In this document: positions 35,583 to 44,232 of the stretch, one piece after another
How positions within the stretch are numbered: position 1 is the stretch's first letter
Layout of the letters: each line of letters starts with the position of its first letter
NCBI GenBank assembly: GCA_019636515.1
Contig: JAHBXI010000001.1
Span: 248,001 to 312,000, forward strand
Reading direction: 5' to 3'
DNA length: 64,000 nt
Source: Phycisphaeraceae bacterium
GTDB taxonomy: Bacteria > Planctomycetota > Phycisphaerae > Phycisphaerales > UBA1924
The notes under the pieces: model-generated
What the model saw: only the letters and a program-made list of their open reading frames with translations
What the model was told of the DNA's origin: nothing
Database searches by the model: none
Program-made: the position numbers and the translations under genes

Positions 35583-36880
35583 GGGCGGCCCTCCGGGCGG
35601 GCGGGTTCGCCGCCTGTGCCGATCCCGGGCTTGGCATCTCCCGGACGACGGGTGACGCGGAGGGAGCGGCGGTCGAGTTCTCGTTCAACATCGGCGAGCG
35701 AAGCACCCGCCGAAACGAGTCTGGCCAGGGTGAAATACACCACGTCGGCCGCCTCGTGGATGACCTGGGCGGTCTCCGTGGCCCCCGCGAGTTCGCGGGC
35801 CTCTTCAACGATCTTGGAGGCCAGCAACGCGGGATCCGAGAGCAGCCGGGCCGTGTAGGACCCGTCGGGGGCGGCGGCCCGCCTGGCTTCGAGCGTCGCC
35901 GCGAGTCGAGCCAGCCCGAACGAGTTCCCCCAGCAGGTGTTCGTCCCCCGATGGCAGAACCCCGGCCCGTGCTGGCGGATCGTGAACAAGAGAGCATCCC
36001 GGTCGCAGTCGAGATCGACGCGGAGCAGTTCCTGGGTCGCCCCGGAAGTCTCCCCTTTTCTCCATAATCCGCGTCGGCGTGACCAGTACACGCCCCGTCC
36101 CTCCTGGACCGCCGTGTTCAGGCTCTGGACATTGGAGTAGCACAGCCCCAGGGCACGGCCGCTTTCATCCACGACCACGGTGGGCCACAGGCCATCGGGT
36201 CGGTCGGTGTTCAGGCACGCGGACACGGCGTCGGCCACGCTGAACAGCCCCTTGTAGATCGCCATGCCGACCTGTGCATCGGCCCCGGCCCGGTCGATCT
36301 GGCCGATCTCGTCGGCCGTGCGCACGCCGCCGGCCACGGTCACCCGTGCCCCGCCCGCGGCCTCGATCACCGGGCGGGCCCGGTCAGCACCAAGACCGCA
36401 AAGCATCCCCTCGGTCTCCACAAAGGTCACCAGGAACCCCCCGACGTACGGGGCCAGCACCCGGACGCGATCAAGAAGGGCATCGGGTGTCGGCTTGGTC
36501 CAGCCCTCGACGACGACACGCCCGTCACGGGCATCGACCGCCGCGATCAGACGCTCACGCGGGAGTTGTTCGAGCACTTCCGGGACCGCCCGGGTTCCCA
36601 GGATGACCTTGCTCGCCCCCGCGTCAAGCCACGCCCGGGCGGCCTGCACGTCTCGTATGCCCCCGCCGACACGGCACCGGGCCAGCGCAAGCAGTTCCCG
36701 GATGATGTCGGCATTGGAGCCGCGCCCCATCGCCGCGTCGAGGTCGATCACCGCGATCTCCCCGACCCGGCCGAACAACCTGGCAATCGGGCGGGGATCG
36801 CCCGCGTCGATGACCTTGGTCTTGCCCTGTTCCAGTTGCACGGCCCGGCCGTCCATGAGATCGATCGACGGGATGATCAT
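35579..36880 (-). CDS. hisA-hisIE: HisA-HisI-HisE trifunctional fusion
   Basis: 433 residues joining three histidine enzymes. Residues 1-230 are HisA, the ProFAR isomerase barrel (IPSIDLMDG with Asp7, GGGIRDVQAA near 72, AAVDARDG with Asp116, TVAGGVRTADEI near 181-192). Residues 231-320 are HisI, the PR-AMP cyclohydrolase: YWSRRRGLWRKGETSG, DCDRD with Asp291/293/295 for metal, Cys292, Cys309 and Cys316 for zinc. Residues 322-405 are HisE, the PR-ATP pyrophosphohydrolase (LLASKIVEEARELAGA, HEAADVVYFTL). The frame is continuous and has no break. HisIE fusions are common; joining HisA to them is unusual. ATGA overlaps couple it to hisF and hisD. Confidence 0.92.
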   Translation of the reverse strand: MIIPSIDLMDGRAVQLEQGKTKVIDAGDPRPIARLFGRVGEIAVIDLDAAMGRGSNADIIRELLALARCRVGGGIRDVQAARAWLDAGASKVILGTRAVPEVLEQLPRERLIAAVDARDGRVVVEGWTKPTPDALLDRVRVLAPYVGGFLVTFVETEGMLCGLGADRARPVIEAAGGARVTVAGGVRTADEIGQIDRAGADAQVGMAIYKGLFSVADAVSACLNTDRPDGLWPTVVVDESGRALGLCYSNVQSLNTAVQEGRGVYWSRRRGLWRKGETSGATQELLRVDLDCDRDALLFTIRQHGPGFCHRGTNTCWGNSFGLARLAATLEARRAAAPDGSYTARLLSDPALLASKIVEEARELAGATETAQVIHEAADVVYFTLARLVSAGASLADVERELDRRSLRVTRRPGDAKPGIGTGGEPARPEGRP

Positions 36881-37728
36881 CGGGCGCCTCCGCGAGGTCC
36901 AGCCGCCGGGCTTGCGTCAGGGCTTCCGCCGGGGCTTCCTTCAAGCCCCCCCGCGGCACGCACCGCGAACCCCGCCGACGCAAGGTCCCGCTTCACGTCG
37001 GCCACGGTCCTGATTCGGTCGTGAAAAATGGTCGCGGCCAGGACGGCATCGGCCCCCGCGGTCAGCCCTTCGGCCAGGTGCTCCCAGTGCGCGGCCCCGC
37101 CCGAGGCGATGATCGGGATGCGGACGCCGCGGCGAACCGCGCGGAGAAGATCAAGGTCGTACCCCGATCCAACGCCGTCACGGTCGATGCTGGTCAGCAG
37201 GATTTCCCCGGCGCCCAGCCGCTGACACTCGCGCGACCACGCGTCGGCCCGGAGGCCAGTCGCCCGCGTCCCCGCTCGGACCACCACCGCCCACGACATG
37301 GACGGCTCCGCCTCCCCGGCATCCGGCGTCCTCGCGGCGTCAATCGCGACGACCACGCACTGGGAACCGAATCGACCGGCCAGCCGCGCGACAAGCGAGG
37401 GATCCTCCACGGCGGCGGTGTTCACCGCGACCTTGTCGGCTCCCGCCCCCAGCATGCACGCCGCATCGGCCTCCGAGCGAACACCCCCGCCCACGGTCAG
37501 CGGGATCGAGATTCGCCGACGCAGCGCGGACACGGTCTCGACGGCGGCCCGCCGCCCGTCGGCGGTGGCCGAGACGTCGAGCATGACCAGTTCGTCCGCG
37601 CCCTGGCGTTCGTACTCGGCGGCCAGCGCGGCCGGATCCCCCGCATCACGCAGGTTCTGAAACCGAACCCCCTTGACGACACGCCCGTCGCGGACATCAA
37701 GGCACGGGATGATTCTCGGGATCAGCAC
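36877..37728 (-). CDS. hisF: Imidazole glycerol phosphate synthase subunit HisF
   Basis: Cyclase subunit that with HisH makes IGP and AICAR, 283 residues. TIM-barrel signatures: IPCLDVRDGRVVKGVRF (Asp in LDV), DELVMLDVSATADG, PLTVGGGVRSEADA, ADKVAVNTAAV, VVVAIDAAR (second catalytic Asp), ITSIDRDG-type (LLTSIDRDGVGSGYD), and IASGGAAHWEHLAEG. It is about 25 residues longer than usual because of a Gly/Pro/Ser-rich C-terminal tail. The GTG at 37728 overlaps the hisH stop by 7 bases; its own stop overlaps the hisA start by ATGA. Confidence 0.96.
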   Translation of the reverse strand: MLIPRIIPCLDVRDGRVVKGVRFQNLRDAGDPAALAAEYERQGADELVMLDVSATADGRRAAVETVSALRRRISIPLTVGGGVRSEADAACMLGAGADKVAVNTAAVEDPSLVARLAGRFGSQCVVVAIDAARTPDAGEAEPSMSWAVVVRAGTRATGLRADAWSRECQRLGAGEILLTSIDRDGVGSGYDLDLLRAVRRGVRIPIIASGGAAHWEHLAEGLTAGADAVLAATIFHDRIRTVADVKRDLASAGFAVRAAGGLEGSPGGSPDASPAAGPRGGAR

Positions 37729-38378
37729 GCGCCAGACTCCAGGAGGTCCCGCGTGGCCGGCGTGGGAACGCCCGATAGATCGAGCCACCCCGCGAGCAGC
37801 CTTGCCCCCCACGCCCCGGACAACTCGGGATGAAACTGGCACGCAACAACCGAACCTCGCTCCATCCCCCCCACAAACGGCCCGCCGTGCTCGGACCACG
37901 CGCCCAGCCATCCCGGCGGGGTCGCCGCCGCGCGGAACGAGTTGGCGTAATAGGCATGCCCGGGCCGCAGCACGCGGCACGATGGATCCGGCTTGACCAG
38001 GTTCCACCCCATCTGCGGGACCCGGACGCCCGCGGGGAAACGCCCAACCGTCCCGGCGGCGACCGCAAGACCCTCGACGCCCGGCGATTCCTCGCTTGAT
38101 TCAAACAGGATCTGCATGCCCAGGCAGATCGCAAGCACGGGACGGCCGCCGTCCACCCGACGACGGATCGCCTCCACAAGCCCGTTCTCCCGCATGGACC
38201 TCATCCCCGCGTCGAAGGAACCCACGCCGGGGAGAACAACCGCCCCCGACCGCTCGATCATGTCCGGCCCTTCCGCCGGCGCGACCTCGACCCCCAGGCG
38301 ATCAAACGCCGCCAGGACCGAGGCGATGTTCGCCGTCGGGGTGCGGACGACATGGATGACCGGCCGAGAACCCGGCAT
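37722..38378 (-). CDS. hisH: Imidazole glycerol phosphate synthase subunit HisH
   Basis: Glutamine amidotransferase subunit that supplies ammonia to HisF, 218 residues. Class I amidotransferase signatures: VLPGVGSFDAGMRSM near 48-62, the nucleophile in LAICLGMQILFESSEE (Cys85), PQMGWN near 121, and the His-Glu pair in CQFHPELSG. It overlaps hisB (TGATG) and hisF, and is clearly part of the operon. Confidence 0.95.
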   Translation of the reverse strand: MPGSRPVIHVVRTPTANIASVLAAFDRLGVEVAPAEGPDMIERSGAVVLPGVGSFDAGMRSMRENGLVEAIRRRVDGGRPVLAICLGMQILFESSEESPGVEGLAVAAGTVGRFPAGVRVPQMGWNLVKPDPSCRVLRPGHAYYANSFRAAATPPGWLGAWSEHGGPFVGGMERGSVVACQFHPELSGAWGARLLAGWLDLSGVPTPATRDLLESGAC

Positions 38379-38980
38379 CAGAGGACCCCCTTGGTCGACC
38401 TCGCGCCGGCGGACCCCTCAAGCCCGACCCCTTGCCGCAGCGCCAGGGCGGTGGCCTTGAACGCGGCCTCGAGGCGGTGATGGTCGTTGACCCCTCGCAG
38501 GACATCAACGTGCAGGCAGAACCGCCCGGCCGTGGCCAGGGATCCGAAAAAATGCGGTGCGTTCTCGCACGAAAGGTCCCCGAGGCGCTCACGCGTCAAT
38601 CCAAGATCGATCACCGTGGTCGGGCGCGTCGCCAGGTCAACGACCGACCTTGCCAGAGCCTCGTCCAGGGGGGCATAGGCAAAGCCAAATCGCCTGATCC
38701 CGCGCCGGTCACCCAGGGCACGGTCGATCGCCTCTCCCATCGCCAGCGCGCAATCCTCCACGGTGTGGTGGTCATCAACCCGAAGGTCACCCTCGCACGC
38801 CAGATCGAGATCGAACCCGGCGTGATGCGCCAGGGAGGTCAGCATGTGGTCAAGAAACCCGACCCCGGTCGCGACCCGGGCCGCGCCGCTCCCGTCGAGG
38901 GCCAGCGTCAGGGCGATCTTCGTTTCGGAGGTGGCGCGTTGAACCGTCGCGACGCGGGGCGGTCGGTTGGTGGGGGTCAT
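38378..38980 (-). CDS. hisB: Imidazoleglycerol-phosphate dehydratase
   Basis: Dehydrates IGP to imidazole acetol phosphate; 200 residues, the monofunctional form with no N-terminal HAD phosphatase. Metal-binding motifs DHMLTSLAHHAGFDL and DDHHTVEDCALAMGEA are intact, as are the second-site ENAPHFF and HVDVLRGVNDHHRLEAAFK. The ATG at 38980 overlaps the hisC stop (ATGA). Histidinol-phosphate phosphatase must therefore be supplied from elsewhere in the genome. Confidence 0.95.
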   Translation of the reverse strand: MTPTNRPPRVATVQRATSETKIALTLALDGSGAARVATGVGFLDHMLTSLAHHAGFDLDLACEGDLRVDDHHTVEDCALAMGEAIDRALGDRRGIRRFGFAYAPLDEALARSVVDLATRPTTVIDLGLTRERLGDLSCENAPHFFGSLATAGRFCLHVDVLRGVNDHHRLEAAFKATALALRQGVGLEGSAGARSTKGVL

Positions 38981-40077
38981 GTCGAGTTCTCCAGGGCCTT
39001 GACGAGCCGTGAGAATAACTCCGCTTCGCCCGGGCACGTGATCCGAAGGCCGTCTTCAAGGCCCGGGCGCCCCGGGAATGCACGGACGGCGATGCCGTGC
39101 GTCGCAAGCGACCCGGCGATGCCCCGGGCCCGGGGTGAGCGGGCCAGGACAAAGTTGGCCAGCGAGTCGTTGACGCGAAGCCCCTTGTGCCGCAGCATCT
39201 CGGCCAGCAGGCCCCGTTCCTCCCGCACCCGATCGACACCGGCGAGCACGGCGTCCTTGAGATCACGGATCGCCCAGGAGGCGATCGCGGCCGACGGGCC
39301 GGCGACGGCGTACGGCTGCCCGACCGCCCTCAGCCAGTCAATCACGGTCGGATCCCCGACGGCATACCCCACGCGAAGACCCGCCAGGCCCCAGGCCTTG
39401 CTGAGCGTGCGCACCGCGACCGCGTTGGGCAGCGAGATCGCGACCGGCGTGAGGTCCTCGCCGGCAAACTCCGTGTACGCCAGGTCCACGACCATCAGGG
39501 CATGAGGAGCCGCGTTCGCCACCGCGGCGAGATCACCGGCCGTCGCGGCCAGGCCGGTCGGGTTGTTGGGCGTCACGATGAAGACCGCGCGGGTTTGCCC
39601 GTCGATCATCCGCGTGAACGACTCCACGGGGAACGGGCCGTCCGTCCACGGGACCTGCCGGAGAATCCCTCCCGCCAGCGAGACATACCGCGGGATCATC
39701 TCGAAGGTGGGCGTGGTGGAGACCGCGTGGCACCCCGGGTCGATCGTGGCCAGGCACAACCGCATGAGCGCATCGTCACCCCCCGCCGTGACCACCACGC
39801 GCTCAGCGCCGACACCCAGATGATCGGCCAGTTGCACGCGAAGCGAGTCGGGGTCCGGGTACTCTCGAACAATCGACGCCCGCCGAGCCTCGGGGATCTC
39901 GATCCACCGTCTTTGCGTCAACGAGAACGGCCCCTCGTTGGCGTCCAGGCGCAGAACATTCTCCGCGGATTCGCCGGAGGCTCCCAAGCCCTTCCCCAAC
40001 GCCGCGGCGGGGGCGGAGGGCGATCGGCGGTACGCCGTGGCCGAGGCGGCCCGGGCCGACGGAACCACGCCGCTCAT
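38977..40077 (-). CDS. hisC: Histidinol-phosphate aminotransferase
   Basis: PLP-dependent class I/II aminotransferase acting on imidazole acetol phosphate, 366 residues. LDANEGPF near 44-51, TAGGDDALMRLC, IVTPNNPTGLAA, VVDLAYTEFAG, the Schiff-base lysine in TLSKAWGLAGLRVGY, and LPDGLRITC-type ending (LEDGLRITCPGEAEL) fit HisC. The first 35 residues are an alanine-rich extension. The ATG at 40077 overlaps the hisG stop (ATGA). Confidence 0.93.
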   Translation of the reverse strand: MSGVVPSARAASATAYRRSPSAPAAALGKGLGASGESAENVLRLDANEGPFSLTQRRWIEIPEARRASIVREYPDPDSLRVQLADHLGVGAERVVVTAGGDDALMRLCLATIDPGCHAVSTTPTFEMIPRYVSLAGGILRQVPWTDGPFPVESFTRMIDGQTRAVFIVTPNNPTGLAATAGDLAAVANAAPHALMVVDLAYTEFAGEDLTPVAISLPNAVAVRTLSKAWGLAGLRVGYAVGDPTVIDWLRAVGQPYAVAGPSAAIASWAIRDLKDAVLAGVDRVREERGLLAEMLRHKGLRVNDSLANFVLARSPRARGIAGSLATHGIAVRAFPGRPGLEDGLRITCPGEAELFSRLVKALENST

Positions 40078-40982
40078 GGGACCACCTGCGTCAGCGGGGA
40101 GATCACGATGTCCGAGCCGCCGCGCGACTTGAGCAGCGGGATGAGCATCGCCAGTTGGTCGCGCGGGACCGCCGCCTTGACCGCGAACCCGGCGTCCCCG
40201 TGCAAGCGGGCCATCGTCGGCTCTCGCATGGACGGAAGGGCGGCGACGACCTCTTCCAGCCGATCCGACGGGCAGTTGAGTTCGAGCATCACGCGATGCC
40301 GGGCGTCGAGCACGGATCGGACCAGCATCGCGATCGCCTCGATTCGCTCCCGACGCGGCGGGTCCTCCCAGGCCTGGCGCGAGGCGTACATACGGGTCGA
40401 TGATCGCATGATCTCTCCGACCACGGCCAGCCCGTTGGCCTCGAGCGTGGCCCCGCTGGCGGCGATGTCGATCACGCAGTCGGCGTCCTCCGGTGGGAAG
40501 ACCTCCGTCGCCCCGTACGAGCGCACAAACCGATCGGACATGCCGCGCCGATCGATCCACCGCCGGGAAAGACGCTCCAGTTCCGAGGCCACCACCAGCG
40601 GCCGCCGCGGAAGGTCGCCCCCTTCGAGGATCGCACGCGGGGCGGCCACGACCACCCGGACCACGTCCAGCCCCGTATCAAGCACCTCCACCACGTCGGC
40701 ATCCAGTTCACTCACCCAGTCCGCCCCGGCAAAACCGACATCGCGGCTGCCGACGTGGAGCATCTCCACGATGTTCTGCGGCTTGAGGATCTTGCACTCC
40801 GTGCCGGGCAGGGAAATCGACGGGCGGTACCCTCGTGACGAGGCGGAGACGCGCATCCCCGCCTCGGCCAGCAGCGAGGTCACCCCCTCGTGCATGCGCC
40901 CCTTGGGAAGGCCGACATGCAGCGCGGCGACCATCCCCGGGCCGGGGGCCGGCGATCCATCCGCGGTTCTCGAATCAGACAC
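40074..40982 (-). CDS. hisG: ATP phosphoribosyltransferase (long form)
   Basis: First and feedback-controlled step of histidine synthesis, joining ATP and PRPP; 302 residues, the long form with a C-terminal ACT-like regulatory domain. Catalytic part: LPKGRMHEGV near 25-34, the GADWVSE segment, DVVEVLDTGLD, and the PRPP loop in DCVIDIAASGATLEANGL (family DxxxSGxTL). The last 75 residues (PTMARLHGDAGFAVKAAVPRD) form the regulatory domain. The start is GTG at 40982, 8 bases after AAGGGAG. It is the first enzyme gene after the his leader and attenuator. Confidence 0.95.
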   Translation of the reverse strand: MSDSRTADGSPAPGPGMVAALHVGLPKGRMHEGVTSLLAEAGMRVSASSRGYRPSISLPGTECKILKPQNIVEMLHVGSRDVGFAGADWVSELDADVVEVLDTGLDVVRVVVAAPRAILEGGDLPRRPLVVASELERLSRRWIDRRGMSDRFVRSYGATEVFPPEDADCVIDIAASGATLEANGLAVVGEIMRSSTRMYASRQAWEDPPRRERIEAIAMLVRSVLDARHRVMLELNCPSDRLEEVVAALPSMREPTMARLHGDAGFAVKAAVPRDQLAMLIPLLKSRGGSDIVISPLTQVVP

Positions 40983-41033
40983 GGCGATTCTCCCTTCGGA
41001 TCATGGCCGCCGGAGTTCGCCCGGGATCGATCG

Positions 41034-41073
41034 CCTTCAAAAGCGAATCGACGCCGGGCAAGCCGGCGTCGAT
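41034..41073 (-). terminator. his attenuator terminator hairpin
   Basis: On the minus strand, ATCGACGCCGG and CCGGCGTCGAT pair perfectly over 11 bp with loop CTTGC (41073-41047), followed by TCGCTTTTG (41046-41038). It is an intrinsic terminator shape with a short U-run. It lies 28 bases after the leader-peptide stop and about 50 before hisG, the position of a transcription attenuator. Upstream, GCCCACG in the leader can pair with CGTGGGC just past its stop, as the proximal stem. I could not define the antiterminator pairing by eye. Confidence 0.72.
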
Positions 41074-41101
41074 CGTGAACATCAGACCTGCTCGGCCCAC
41101 G

Positions 41102-41176
41102 TCACATCGCCACCAGCCCGCGTCCGTGGGCGTGATGATGATGATGGTGGCCGCGATGGTCGGCAAAGCACTTCAT
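41102..41176 (-). CDS. hisL: his operon leader peptide
   Basis: 24-codon reading frame: it starts MKCFADHRG, then six consecutive His codons (CAC CAT CAT CAT CAT CAC), then AHGRGLVAM and a TGA stop. Eight of 24 codons are His. As in the enterobacterial his operon, translation of the His run would sense charged tRNA-His and choose between terminator and antiterminator. Its ATG is only about 11 bases after the candidate -10, so the transcript would be nearly leaderless. The alternative frames over the same repeat (poly-Ile or poly-Ser) do not fit a leader. The peptide is read directly from sequence; its role is inferred from family knowledge. Confidence 0.82.
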   Translation of the reverse strand: MKCFADHRGHHHHHHAHGRGLVAM

Positions 41177-41187
41177 ACGACATGGAA

Positions 41188-41216
41188 ACGCTAGCCATCG
41201 GCGCCCGCGCCGTCAA
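41188..41216 (-). promoter_or_regulatory. his operon promoter
   Basis: On the minus strand TTGACG (41216-41211, five of six consensus bases), a 17-bp spacer, and TAGCGT (41193-41188, three of six). The predicted start is near 41180, a few bases before the leader-peptide ATG. It is the only good candidate between ribF and the leader. Confidence 0.55.
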
Positions 41217-41254: not shown

Positions 41255-42211
41255 ATGGTCCCGATGACGACCCGGAGCACCCAGGAGCCTTCCCTCACCG
41301 CCGTCACCATCGGCAACTTCGACGGGGTTCACCTGGGGCACGCGTCCCTGGTTCGCGCCTGCCGGGAGCACGCCGGGTCCTCCGGACGGGTCGTCGCGTT
41401 GGCCTTCGATCCCCATCCGTTCTCGACACTCGCCCCCGGGAAATGCCCCCCGCGACTCACATCCTTCGATGAAAGGGCCGACCGGCTCCGCTCCCTGGGG
41501 GTCGATCAGGTCATCCAACTGCATCCGACACCCGAATTGCTCGGCCTCAATCCCCAGGAGTTCATCGACCGCGTGGTGATGCCGCTGCGTCCGACGGCGC
41601 TGGTCGAGGGCGACGATTTTCACTTCGGACGCGCAAGGTCCGGAAACACGAGGGTCCTGGCGGAACTGGGGCTGTCCCGCGGGTTCGGCGTCATGGTCTG
41701 CCCGGCCGTCGAGGTCGGCCTTGACGGGCAATGGCTGGTACGGGCTTCGAGCACCGTGGCCAGATGGCTCATCTCCCACGGCCGCGTCGCCGACGCCGCC
41801 CGCGTCCTGGGGCGGCCATTCTCGGTCCGCGGACAAGTCACCCGAGGCGATCAGCGTGGGCGCTCCATCGGATACCGCACCGCCAACATCAGCACCGACC
41901 AGGTCCTTCCCGCCGACGGCGTGTACGCCGGGCGGCTCGACCATGACGGCCGGTCCTATCCGGCCGCGATCAGCGTGGGCACTCGACCGACGTTCAACGG
42001 CGCGACAAGCCGCGTCGAGGCGCACGCCATGAATCCCGACGGCACGCCCGCCACGCTCCCGGACGCATACGACTGGCTCGCCGTGGTCACGTTCGACCGT
42101 TGGGTGCGTGACGACCTGCGGTTCGACGGGGTCGAGTCGCTCCGCGGACAGATCGACCGCGATGCACGGCGGTGCCTGAACCTGCTGGCGTCGCTCACGA
42201 CGACGGGATAG
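41255..42211 (+). CDS. ribF: Bifunctional riboflavin kinase/FAD synthetase
   Basis: Makes FMN and FAD from riboflavin, 318 residues. The N-terminal FAD-synthetase domain (about 1-180) has TIGNFDGVHLGHASL (HxGH-type), AFDPHPFSTL, ILxxDFxFG-type LVEGDDFHFGRARSG. The C-terminal riboflavin-kinase domain (about 185-318) shows GRPFSVRGQVTRGDQRGRSIGYRTANIS and DGVYAGR. A start at 41264 (MTTRST) is also possible. It is divergent from the his operon, so the 72 bases between 41183 and 41254 hold both promoters. Confidence 0.93.
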   Translation: MVPMTTRSTQEPSLTAVTIGNFDGVHLGHASLVRACREHAGSSGRVVALAFDPHPFSTLAPGKCPPRLTSFDERADRLRSLGVDQVIQLHPTPELLGLNPQEFIDRVVMPLRPTALVEGDDFHFGRARSGNTRVLAELGLSRGFGVMVCPAVEVGLDGQWLVRASSTVARWLISHGRVADAARVLGRPFSVRGQVTRGDQRGRSIGYRTANISTDQVLPADGVYAGRLDHDGRSYPAAISVGTRPTFNGATSRVEAHAMNPDGTPATLPDAYDWLAVVTFDRWVRDDLRFDGVESLRGQIDRDARRCLNLLASLTTTG

Positions 42212-42277: not shown

Positions 42278-43327
42278 ATGACGGAGTCCTGGACGACCAA
42301 CACCACGCTTGAGCAGATCGCCCACTGGATCCGACCGCTGCGGAGGGTGGTGGTGCTGACGCACGCCAAACCCGACGGAGACGCGATCGGGTCCACGCTC
42401 GCGATCGCCGCCGCGATCAACGCCCTGCGGCCCGATGCCCAGTCCCCCACGGCCCAGGTGTGGTACTTCGGCGCGATGCCACCCTTCGCGGCGAAACTCA
42501 TCGGCGACGCCCCCGCCCGCCATTTCCTGCAGCAGTCCCACCCCGGCGGGGAGCCCGACGGGATCGTGATCACCGACACGGGATCGTGGAACCAACTCGA
42601 GCACGTCAAGGATTGGCTGGGCCCCCGGGCCGACCGCGCGGCGTTGATCGATCACCACCGACACGGCGACCCCGCCAGCGCGGCCCGACGCTTCATCGAT
42701 CCCGGCTCCGCGGCGGCGTGCCAGATCGCCGCGGAACTCGCCCGTTTGCTGCTGAAACTACCCTCCGTGACGGGCCTGCCGGTCGGCATCGCCCGCCTGT
42801 GCTACCTGGGCCTGGCGACCGACACGGGATGGTTCCGGCACAGCAACACAACCCCATCGGCGCTGCGCCTGGCGGCCGACCTGCTCGATGCGGGCGTGGA
42901 TGCCCCGGAACTCTACAGGATCGTCGAGCAATCCGACCGCGAAGCACGCGTGAGACTCATGGCCCGGGCGCTCGCCGGGATGCAACTCCACGACCGCGGC
43001 CGGTTCGCGTTCATGTCGCTGACCAGGGCCGACTTCGCCGAGTTTCACGCCGAGCAAGGGGACGCCGGAGGCTTTGCCGATCACGCCCAGGCCATCGAAT
43101 CGGTCAGCGTCGTGGCGATGTTCACCGAGTCCGACCCCGATTCCTCCGGAGCCCCCGTCACCAAGGTCAGCCTCCGCAGCAAGGATGGGGAGGGCGGCGT
43201 CGATGTCAACGCCGTGGCTCGGCGGTTCGACGGGGGCGGGCATATCAGGGCCGCCGGCGCTCGCATCGCCGCGCCGATCGACCAGGCCCGGCAGATGGTC
43301 CTGGACGTTCTCCGCGAGGCGGTCTGA
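42278..43327 (+). CDS. nrnA: DHH-family phosphoesterase, NrnA-like
   Basis: 349-residue DHH/DHHA1 phosphoesterase. Family relatives (NrnA) degrade short oligoribonucleotides and dephosphorylate pAp. Motifs: THAKPDGDAIGS near 28-39, VITDTGS, the DHH motif LIDHHRHGD near 125-133, a third metal site in LGLATDTGWF, and the DHHA1 nucleic-acid-binding GGGHIRAAGARI near the end. Cytosolic. It is followed 111 bases later by a methyltransferase gene on the same strand. Confidence 0.88.
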   Translation: MTESWTTNTTLEQIAHWIRPLRRVVVLTHAKPDGDAIGSTLAIAAAINALRPDAQSPTAQVWYFGAMPPFAAKLIGDAPARHFLQQSHPGGEPDGIVITDTGSWNQLEHVKDWLGPRADRAALIDHHRHGDPASAARRFIDPGSAAACQIAAELARLLLKLPSVTGLPVGIARLCYLGLATDTGWFRHSNTTPSALRLAADLLDAGVDAPELYRIVEQSDREARVRLMARALAGMQLHDRGRFAFMSLTRADFAEFHAEQGDAGGFADHAQAIESVSVVAMFTESDPDSSGAPVTKVSLRSKDGEGGVDVNAVARRFDGGGHIRAAGARIAAPIDQARQMVLDVLREAV

Positions 43328-43437
43328 CCAACGTGGAGAATCCTCGCCCATCCCGACGCACCCCGCCCGGCCACACGCCACCCGCGACGCCCCGGCCACG
43401 CCGCGCGGGCCTGCCGGCTCGACCCGCCCTGCGCCTC

Positions 43438-44232
43438 ATGACCACGACGCTCTGGGAGTACCCAAGCCAGCACTACGACTCTCCCGCGGGCCCAAGGATG
43501 CAGGGCGATAAGGAGTACGTCGGCGCCACGCCGTCGTGGGTGATCTGGCAGGTTCTCTCGAGATACACACGTGAAACCGACCTGGTGGTCGACCCCATGT
43601 GCGGCAGCGGCACCACCCTGGACGTCGCCAGGGACCTGCGCCGCCGGGCGCTTGGATACGACCTGGCTCCCTCTCGCCCGGACATCTTCCGGGCCGATGC
43701 CAGAAAAGTGCCGATCGAGGACGAGAAGGCGGACTTTGTCTTCATCGACCCACCGTACTCGACGCACATCGCCTACTCCGAAGACCCCGCGTGCATCGGG
43801 AAACTCGACGCGAGCGGCCAGGACGCCGGCCGGGCCTACTACGACGCGATGCGCGCGGTGATCGCCGAGGCGTGGCGCATCCTCAAGGACCGCCGATACA
43901 TGGCCTTGTACGTGAGCGACTCGTGGCGCAAGCGGGGCCGCGGGCCGGGAGAATCGAGCCGGGCGGGGGGCCGCCCCCCGGGGCCGGCGGGGCTTGCGTC
44001 GGGCCTGTTCATGCCCATCGGGTTTGAACTCTTCTCCATCATGCGTGAACGATTCACGCCCGTCGATATCGTCTGCGTGGTCCGCCACAACCAGAAACTC
44101 CGGCGAGGGAACTGGCACAAGGCGGCGGAGGAAGGAAACTTCTTTTTACGCGGGTTCAACTACCTGTTCATCATGAAAAAGCAACAGAGCGATCCCGGAC
44201 GCGATCCCGCCTCACCGATGCGACGCCCATGA
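43438..44232 (+). CDS. Putative DNA methyltransferase
   Basis: 264-residue AdoMet-dependent methyltransferase. Motif I DPMCGSGTTLD starts at residue 52, and the catalytic DPPYS is at 104-108. The upstream TPSWVIWQVL segment matches motif X. This order (X, I, IV) is that of gamma-class or related N6-adenine/N4-cytosine methylases. A low-complexity loop (about 165-185, Arg/Gly/Pro-rich) follows. The C-terminal FNYLFIMKK segment is seen in phage-type DNA methylases. No restriction enzyme is adjacent. RNA as substrate cannot be excluded. Confidence 0.72.
   Translation: MTTTLWEYPSQHYDSPAGPRMQGDKEYVGATPSWVIWQVLSRYTRETDLVVDPMCGSGTTLDVARDLRRRALGYDLAPSRPDIFRADARKVPIEDEKADFVFIDPPYSTHIAYSEDPACIGKLDASGQDAGRAYYDAMRAVIAEAWRILKDRRYMALYVSDSWRKRGRGPGESSRAGGRPPGPAGLASGLFMPIGFELFSIMRERFTPVDIVCVVRHNQKLRRGNWHKAAEEGNFFLRGFNYLFIMKKQQSDPGRDPASPMRRP

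Follow-up and report, generated by a model that had tools for sequence, protein, structure and literature searches.

The hisGCBHF operon in the 64,000-nucleotide stretch of Phycisphaeraceae DNA analyzed here (the window) is very probably controlled by a ribosome-mediated transcription attenuator whose leader peptide gene is leaderless, or nearly so. The attenuator is real and conserved; its working is like that of the enterobacterial system, with a leaderless leader as a variation on it. The parts, their conservation, their mutually exclusive pairings and the ribosome geometry were established computationally. The his attenuator of enterobacteria is the founding case of this type of regulation. 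Descriptions of histidine attenuators cover Gammaproteobacteria and some Firmicutes (PMC9413887). No report of a his attenuator in Planctomycetota or Gemmatimonadota was found in the open-access literature (subscription papers were outside the scope of the search). An initial annotation of this DNA had remarked that such leaders are little described in planctomycete-like genomes.

The attenuator is located in the 272-nt gap between hisG and the divergent ribF gene (41255-42211, plus strand). The minus strand of this gap contains a promoter, a 24-codon reading frame, an 11-bp hairpin and a short U-tract; coordinates below refer to this strand unless noted otherwise. The genes were identified using NCBIfam models with their cut-offs, and the order after the attenuator is hisG-hisC-hisB-hisH-hisF. 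The hisG gene (40074-40982, GTG start at 40982) encodes an ATP phosphoribosyltransferase with a C-terminal regulatory domain (TIGR00070, TIGR03455). The best model for hisC (38977-40077, histidinol-phosphate aminotransferase) is TIGR01141, with a score below the cut-off. As for hisG, matches above the cut-off were obtained for hisB (38378-39037, imidazoleglycerol-phosphate dehydratase, NF002111), hisH (37722-38378, TIGR01855) and hisF (36877-37731, TIGR00735). The initial annotation had listed a TTGACG-N17-TAGCGT promoter, a 24-codon frame with six consecutive His codons (eight in total), a perfect 11-bp GC-rich hairpin with a short U-run, and hisG downstream of the leader and hairpin; each of these was confirmed. 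Elsewhere in the window, a frame with the DNA-methylase-like motif DPPYS (43300-44232, plus strand) is flanked by an nrnA-like gene and a gcvT/ygfZ-like frame.

The leader peptide gene, hisL (MKCFADHRGHHHHHHAHGRGLVAM, 41102-41176), has 24 codons, eight of them for His, and is preceded by no Shine-Dalgarno sequence. The first His is codon 7, the six consecutive His codons that constitute the regulatory run are codons 10-15 (41132-41149), and an isolated last His is codon 17. Dinucleotide shuffling of the 272-nt intergenic region, repeated 2000 times, never produced six His within 10 codons. The same HisG type is present in 86 of the 163 genomes of the window's family, and 82 upstream regions of hisG from the family were examined for a His-rich micro-ORF, defined as a short frame that has four or more His codons within a stretch of ten. 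The run of codons for the product of the operon that characterizes an attenuator leader was found in 77 of these 82 regions; of the five regions that lack it, one is at the end of a contig. The controls gave 4/82 on the reverse strand and 24/820 for shuffles (3%), and no other amino acid is as enriched as His in the family micro-ORFs. In about 73 of the 77 relatives, the leader stop codon is followed, at a distance of 21-50 nt, by a GC-rich hairpin with a GCCGG core and a T-rich tail. Loss of the His codons or the terminator in relatives had been named in the initial annotation as evidence that would count against its reading, and the comparison came out in favor of that reading.

The -35 hexamer TTGACG (41211-41216) and the -10 hexamer TAGCGT (41188-41193) are separated by a 17-nt spacer, and the leader begins 11 nt downstream of the -10 hexamer. 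From the position of the -10 hexamer, transcription is predicted to start at 41177-41182, 2-5 nt before the leader start codon, which would leave a 5′ UTR of about 2-5 nt and an effectively leaderless transcript. The -10 hexamer has 3/6 matches to the consensus and is weak taken alone. A consensus promoter and terminator scan of this region reported neither element, because the window's own -10 hexamer and U-tract are weak copies. Both are poor in isolation, and their conservation in relatives is therefore the real test. When the upstream regions were aligned on the leader start codon, TTGAC and TAnnnT appeared directly before the start, with TTGAC kept at the same place in the family. The distance between the end of the best promoter and the leader start is 5-11 nt in 72/77 relatives, compared with 7% of shuffles, and a Shine-Dalgarno core precedes the leader in just 4/77. 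The window, with its 11-nt spacing and no Shine-Dalgarno sequence, has both marks of a leaderless leader-peptide gene. The distance from a -10 hexamer to the transcription start is usually 6-7 nt; the family 5′ UTR is therefore predicted to be about 0-5 nt, and by this spacing the leader of the family is probably effectively leaderless.

It is unlikely that the leader instead has a normal 5′ UTR made from a promoter further upstream. The poor -10 match and the 11-nt distance, which is at the far end of the family range, would suit such a promoter, but the TTGAC/TAnnnT pair is kept next to the start in nearly all relatives, Shine-Dalgarno cores are rare, and the divergent ribF gene begins 38 nt upstream of the -35 hexamer. 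No alternative promoter downstream of the leader was found in the consensus scan, which also missed the window's own promoter.

Within the window's own genome, a strict TTGAC-TANNNT promoter 5-10 nt before an ATG was found at nine sites (L205-L213). Eight of these open long frames, and leaderless genes therefore look usual in this organism. The long frames include what we take, from reading the sequences, to be two ArsR-like regulators and one glucose-6-phosphate isomerase (pgi-like). No further leaderless amino-acid leader was found among the nine sites genome-wide. Leaderless and/or RPS1-based initiation has been inferred for Planctomycetes in a published comparison (PMC5397173). The initial annotation had described the transcript as nearly leaderless and as unusual for that reason. 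The first part is supported (72/77 relatives); the arrangement is not unprecedented, as leaderless leader peptides are known for trpL, leuL and ilvL in Streptomyces (PMC8079986) and for trpL in S. meliloti (PMC7298713), and the Cys-rich uORFs of mycobacteria are also leaderless (PMC4633059). These share with hisL a regulatory micro-ORF at the 5′ end of the transcript before an amino-acid gene. They differ in amino acid and lineage, and no His leader is among those of PMC8079986.

The intrinsic terminator between the leader and hisG consists of a perfect 11-bp GC-rich stem, ATCGACGCCGG (41073-41063) paired with CCGGCGTCGAT (41057-41047), with a 5-nt loop and then TCGCTTTT. The U-tract UCGCUUUU (41039-41046) is short and weak taken alone in the window, and a T-rich tail is present in nearly all relatives. 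Segment 3 (AUCGACGCCGGCUUGC, 41058-41073), which is common to the antiterminator (2:3) and the terminator (3:4), and segment 4 (CCGGCGUCGAU, 41047-41057), the 3′ arm of the terminator, were identified from the sequence, the folds and the family comparison. The leader could in principle act on translation, with the downstream hairpin hiding the ribosome-binding site of hisG and no stop of transcription; translational attenuators are known in other bacteria, and the short U-tract would be in line with one. This alternative is improbable: the end of the hairpin is 64 nt from hisG, with the Shine-Dalgarno-like AAGGGAG of hisG (40990-40996) outside the terminator and free, and in relatives the hairpin keeps its T-rich tail and is located about 50 to 215 nt upstream of the aligned start of hisG.

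The antiterminator is the part missing from the initial annotation and is added by the present analysis. Folding and a search for an exclusive antiterminator pairing had been proposed there as a check, and the pairing was found: 2:3 excludes 3:4 and behaves as a switch in the folds. Segment 2 (GCGGGCUGGUGGCGAU, 41106-41121), the 5′ strand of the antiterminator, overlaps the last leader codons and pairs with segment 3, which comprises the terminator loop and 5′ arm, at 15 of 16 positions with one mismatch. An inner hairpin, GUGACGUGGGCC/GGUCUGAUGUUCA (41076-41104), extends the antiterminator stem in the folds of the window. Segment 1 (CAUCGCGGCCACCA, 41145-41158), which contains His/Arg/Gly codons, pairs with segment 2 in the ribosome-free MFE fold of the window, and the terminator then forms.

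The same pairings were examined across 74 members of the family. In 69/74 members the strongest pairing of the terminator 5′ arm is with a strand at the leader stop codon, and the mean energy of the antiterminator duplex is -17.7 kcal/mol, compared with -12.7 kcal/mol in shuffles. When the alignment columns were kept fixed, the terminator gave a clear signal, and the antiterminator paired in 55.4% of cells versus 53.4% for row-swapped alignments (sd 0.73). The small size of this excess is due to a register that shifts with respect to the stop codon, and a free-register partner-swap test was used in place of fixed-column covariation. Segments 2 and 3 bind better to the partner from the same genome than to those of other genomes (z -6.0; z -4.05 with one genome per genus), and the 1:2 pairing is likewise stronger within a genome (z -4.0, family). 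Matched changes in single genomes are found for GAACCGGUG with CGCCGGUUC in G008 and for GGUCGGCG with CGCCGACC in G429.

In the ribosome model, the footprint extends 12 nt ahead of the A-site codon. In 74/74 members there is at least one His codon at which a stalled ribosome leaves all of segment 2 free, and a ribosome at the stop codon masks 94% of segment 2 on average. Folding of the window's RNA behind the modeled ribosome gave the antiterminator when the ribosome was placed on codon 10, 12 or 15, all within the six-His run, and the terminator when it was placed on codon 17 or on the stop codon. With the ribosome stalled at codon 7, the terminator is the fold at equilibrium, but the antiterminator is the first to form, at a time when the 3′ arm does not yet exist. 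Equilibrium masked folding shows a switch in 44/74 members versus 12/222 with a shuffled spacer, and the 30/74 members without a switch were counted against the model. By computation alone, the antiterminator and the terminator are mutually exclusive and the choice between them depends on the position of the ribosome. The initial annotation had recognized the layout of enterobacterial ribosome-mediated his attenuation. The working design is supported by the folds and the conservation; membership of the RNA family is not, as Rfam RF00514 (His_leader) gave no match in the window at the gathering cut-off or at E up to 10.

From these features we infer the transcription start, the actual termination, the read-through and the response to histidine. 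RNA polymerase would begin the transcript 2-5 nt upstream of the leader AUG, and the loading of a ribosome at the 5′ end of the RNA would take place without a Shine-Dalgarno sequence. With ample charged tRNA-His, the ribosome would reach the stop codon and cover segment 2, so that segments 3 and 4 would pair and the GC-rich hairpin with its U-tract would stop transcription before hisG. With scarce charged tRNA-His, the ribosome would stall within the six-His run, opening segment 1 and leaving segment 2 free to capture segment 3 before segment 4 exists; no terminator would form and the operon would be transcribed. If the leader were untranslated, the 1:2 pairing would allow the terminator to form. 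Regulation is thus expected to follow the level of charged tRNA-His.

His-rich peptides are able to bind metals, and the micro-ORF could accordingly be imagined to make a functional, metal-binding peptide with a hairpin that merely insulates hisG. This is very improbable, given that the family peptides have little in common beyond the His run and vary freely in the remainder, that the RNA pairings of segments 2, 3 and 4 are kept genome by genome, and that the micro-ORF is strictly placed before one hisG type. A chance run of CAY codons beside an unrelated hairpin is refuted by the conservation in 77/82 relatives: poly-CAY or poly-His runs do occur at several other places in the genome, in long frames, but the hisL run alone lies in a short ORF and none of the 2000 shuffles matches it.

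Like the attenuator proposed here, the enterobacterial his attenuator (hisL; RF00514) has a His-codon leader before hisG, alternative terminator and antiterminator structures, and a ribosome as the sensor. The planctomycete leader differs in that its ORF is at the 5′ end of the RNA without a Shine-Dalgarno sequence, in its shorter leader and in the overlap of the antiterminator strand with the end of the leader ORF. A his-specific T-box riboswitch is not supported, with no T-box model matching at the gathering cut-off or at E up to 10. The candidate his attenuators of some Firmicutes have short leaders, consecutive His codons, a terminator and an antiterminator; they belong to a different phylum, their sequences are unrelated, and a leaderless start is not reported in the passages of that source consulted (PMC9413887). 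The histidine operons of Actinobacteria were not preceded by any RNA element in a survey from 2005 (PMC1262725); His leaders in this phylum are the subject of a later conference paper cited in PMC4833913. The trp attenuators of Corynebacterium and Streptomyces contain a GC-rich complementary triple, gGCC-rGCy-GGCC, common to the antiterminator and terminator (PMC1262725). The corresponding triple here is GCCGG-CCGGC-GCCGG, whereas theirs goes with Trp codons and a different operon.

The same micro-ORF, leaderless promoter and GCCGG terminator precede related hisG genes in records of Gemmatimonadota, Acidobacteriota, Actinomycetota, Spirochaetota and Chloroflexota; these cross-phylum records are mostly metagenome bins, and single phylum labels may be wrong. 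In a phylum-wide sample around one Gemmatimonadota genome, the leader was found before 16/22 HisG of the window's type and before 0/6 of the other type. It was also found before 0/11 HisG of the other type in two sister families of the window's order, and 30 other planctomycete hisG genes gave one weak leader match. HisG types without the leader serve as negative controls. On the HisG tree the attenuator label requires 11 changes, compared with 28 for shuffled labels. Two very distant HisG types split one planctomycete order, and the window's type is common to Gemmatimonadota and other phyla (L018-L028 versus the window). The patchy presence of this hisG type and its attenuator in two phyla fits a transfer of the operon together with its switch; ancient duplication and loss is a possible source of the same distribution. 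It is quite possible, and proposed here tentatively, that a self-contained leaderless his attenuator travels with one his operon type between phyla (Planctomycetota, Gemmatimonadota and the bins labeled Acidobacteriota, Actinomycetota, Spirochaetota and Chloroflexota). HisG was not detectable in 77/163 family genomes or in most sampled genomes of the two sister families, which suggests histidine auxotrophy or a missed enzyme.

No consistent Trp leaders were found before trpE in 30 family genomes, and attenuation is therefore not general in the family. No IlvB scored above the TIGR00118 cut-off in 41 family genomes, hence there were no ilvB leaders to examine. Acetolactate synthase (TIGR00118) gave no match at all in 31 of these 41 genomes, the window's genome included, and the family may lack branched-chain amino acid synthesis or have a divergent form of it.

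Nearly every hisG gene of one type has the attenuator upstream. Its leaderless reading frame simplifies the recruitment of the first ribosome and the timing of this ribosome with the polymerase. No Rfam family matched, and a new RNA family model could therefore annotate the leaderless his attenuator. A spatial separation of transcription and translation has been proposed for Gemmata, as cited in PMC5394234. For an attenuator to work, the polymerase must be closely followed by a ribosome, and the conservation of the attenuator thus bears on transcription-translation coupling in planctomycetes. If the proposal of transfer between phyla is true, an attenuator that needs neither a Shine-Dalgarno sequence nor a regulator protein would work in any host that couples transcription with translation, and phycisphaeral planctomycetes would be among the bacteria that couple the two.
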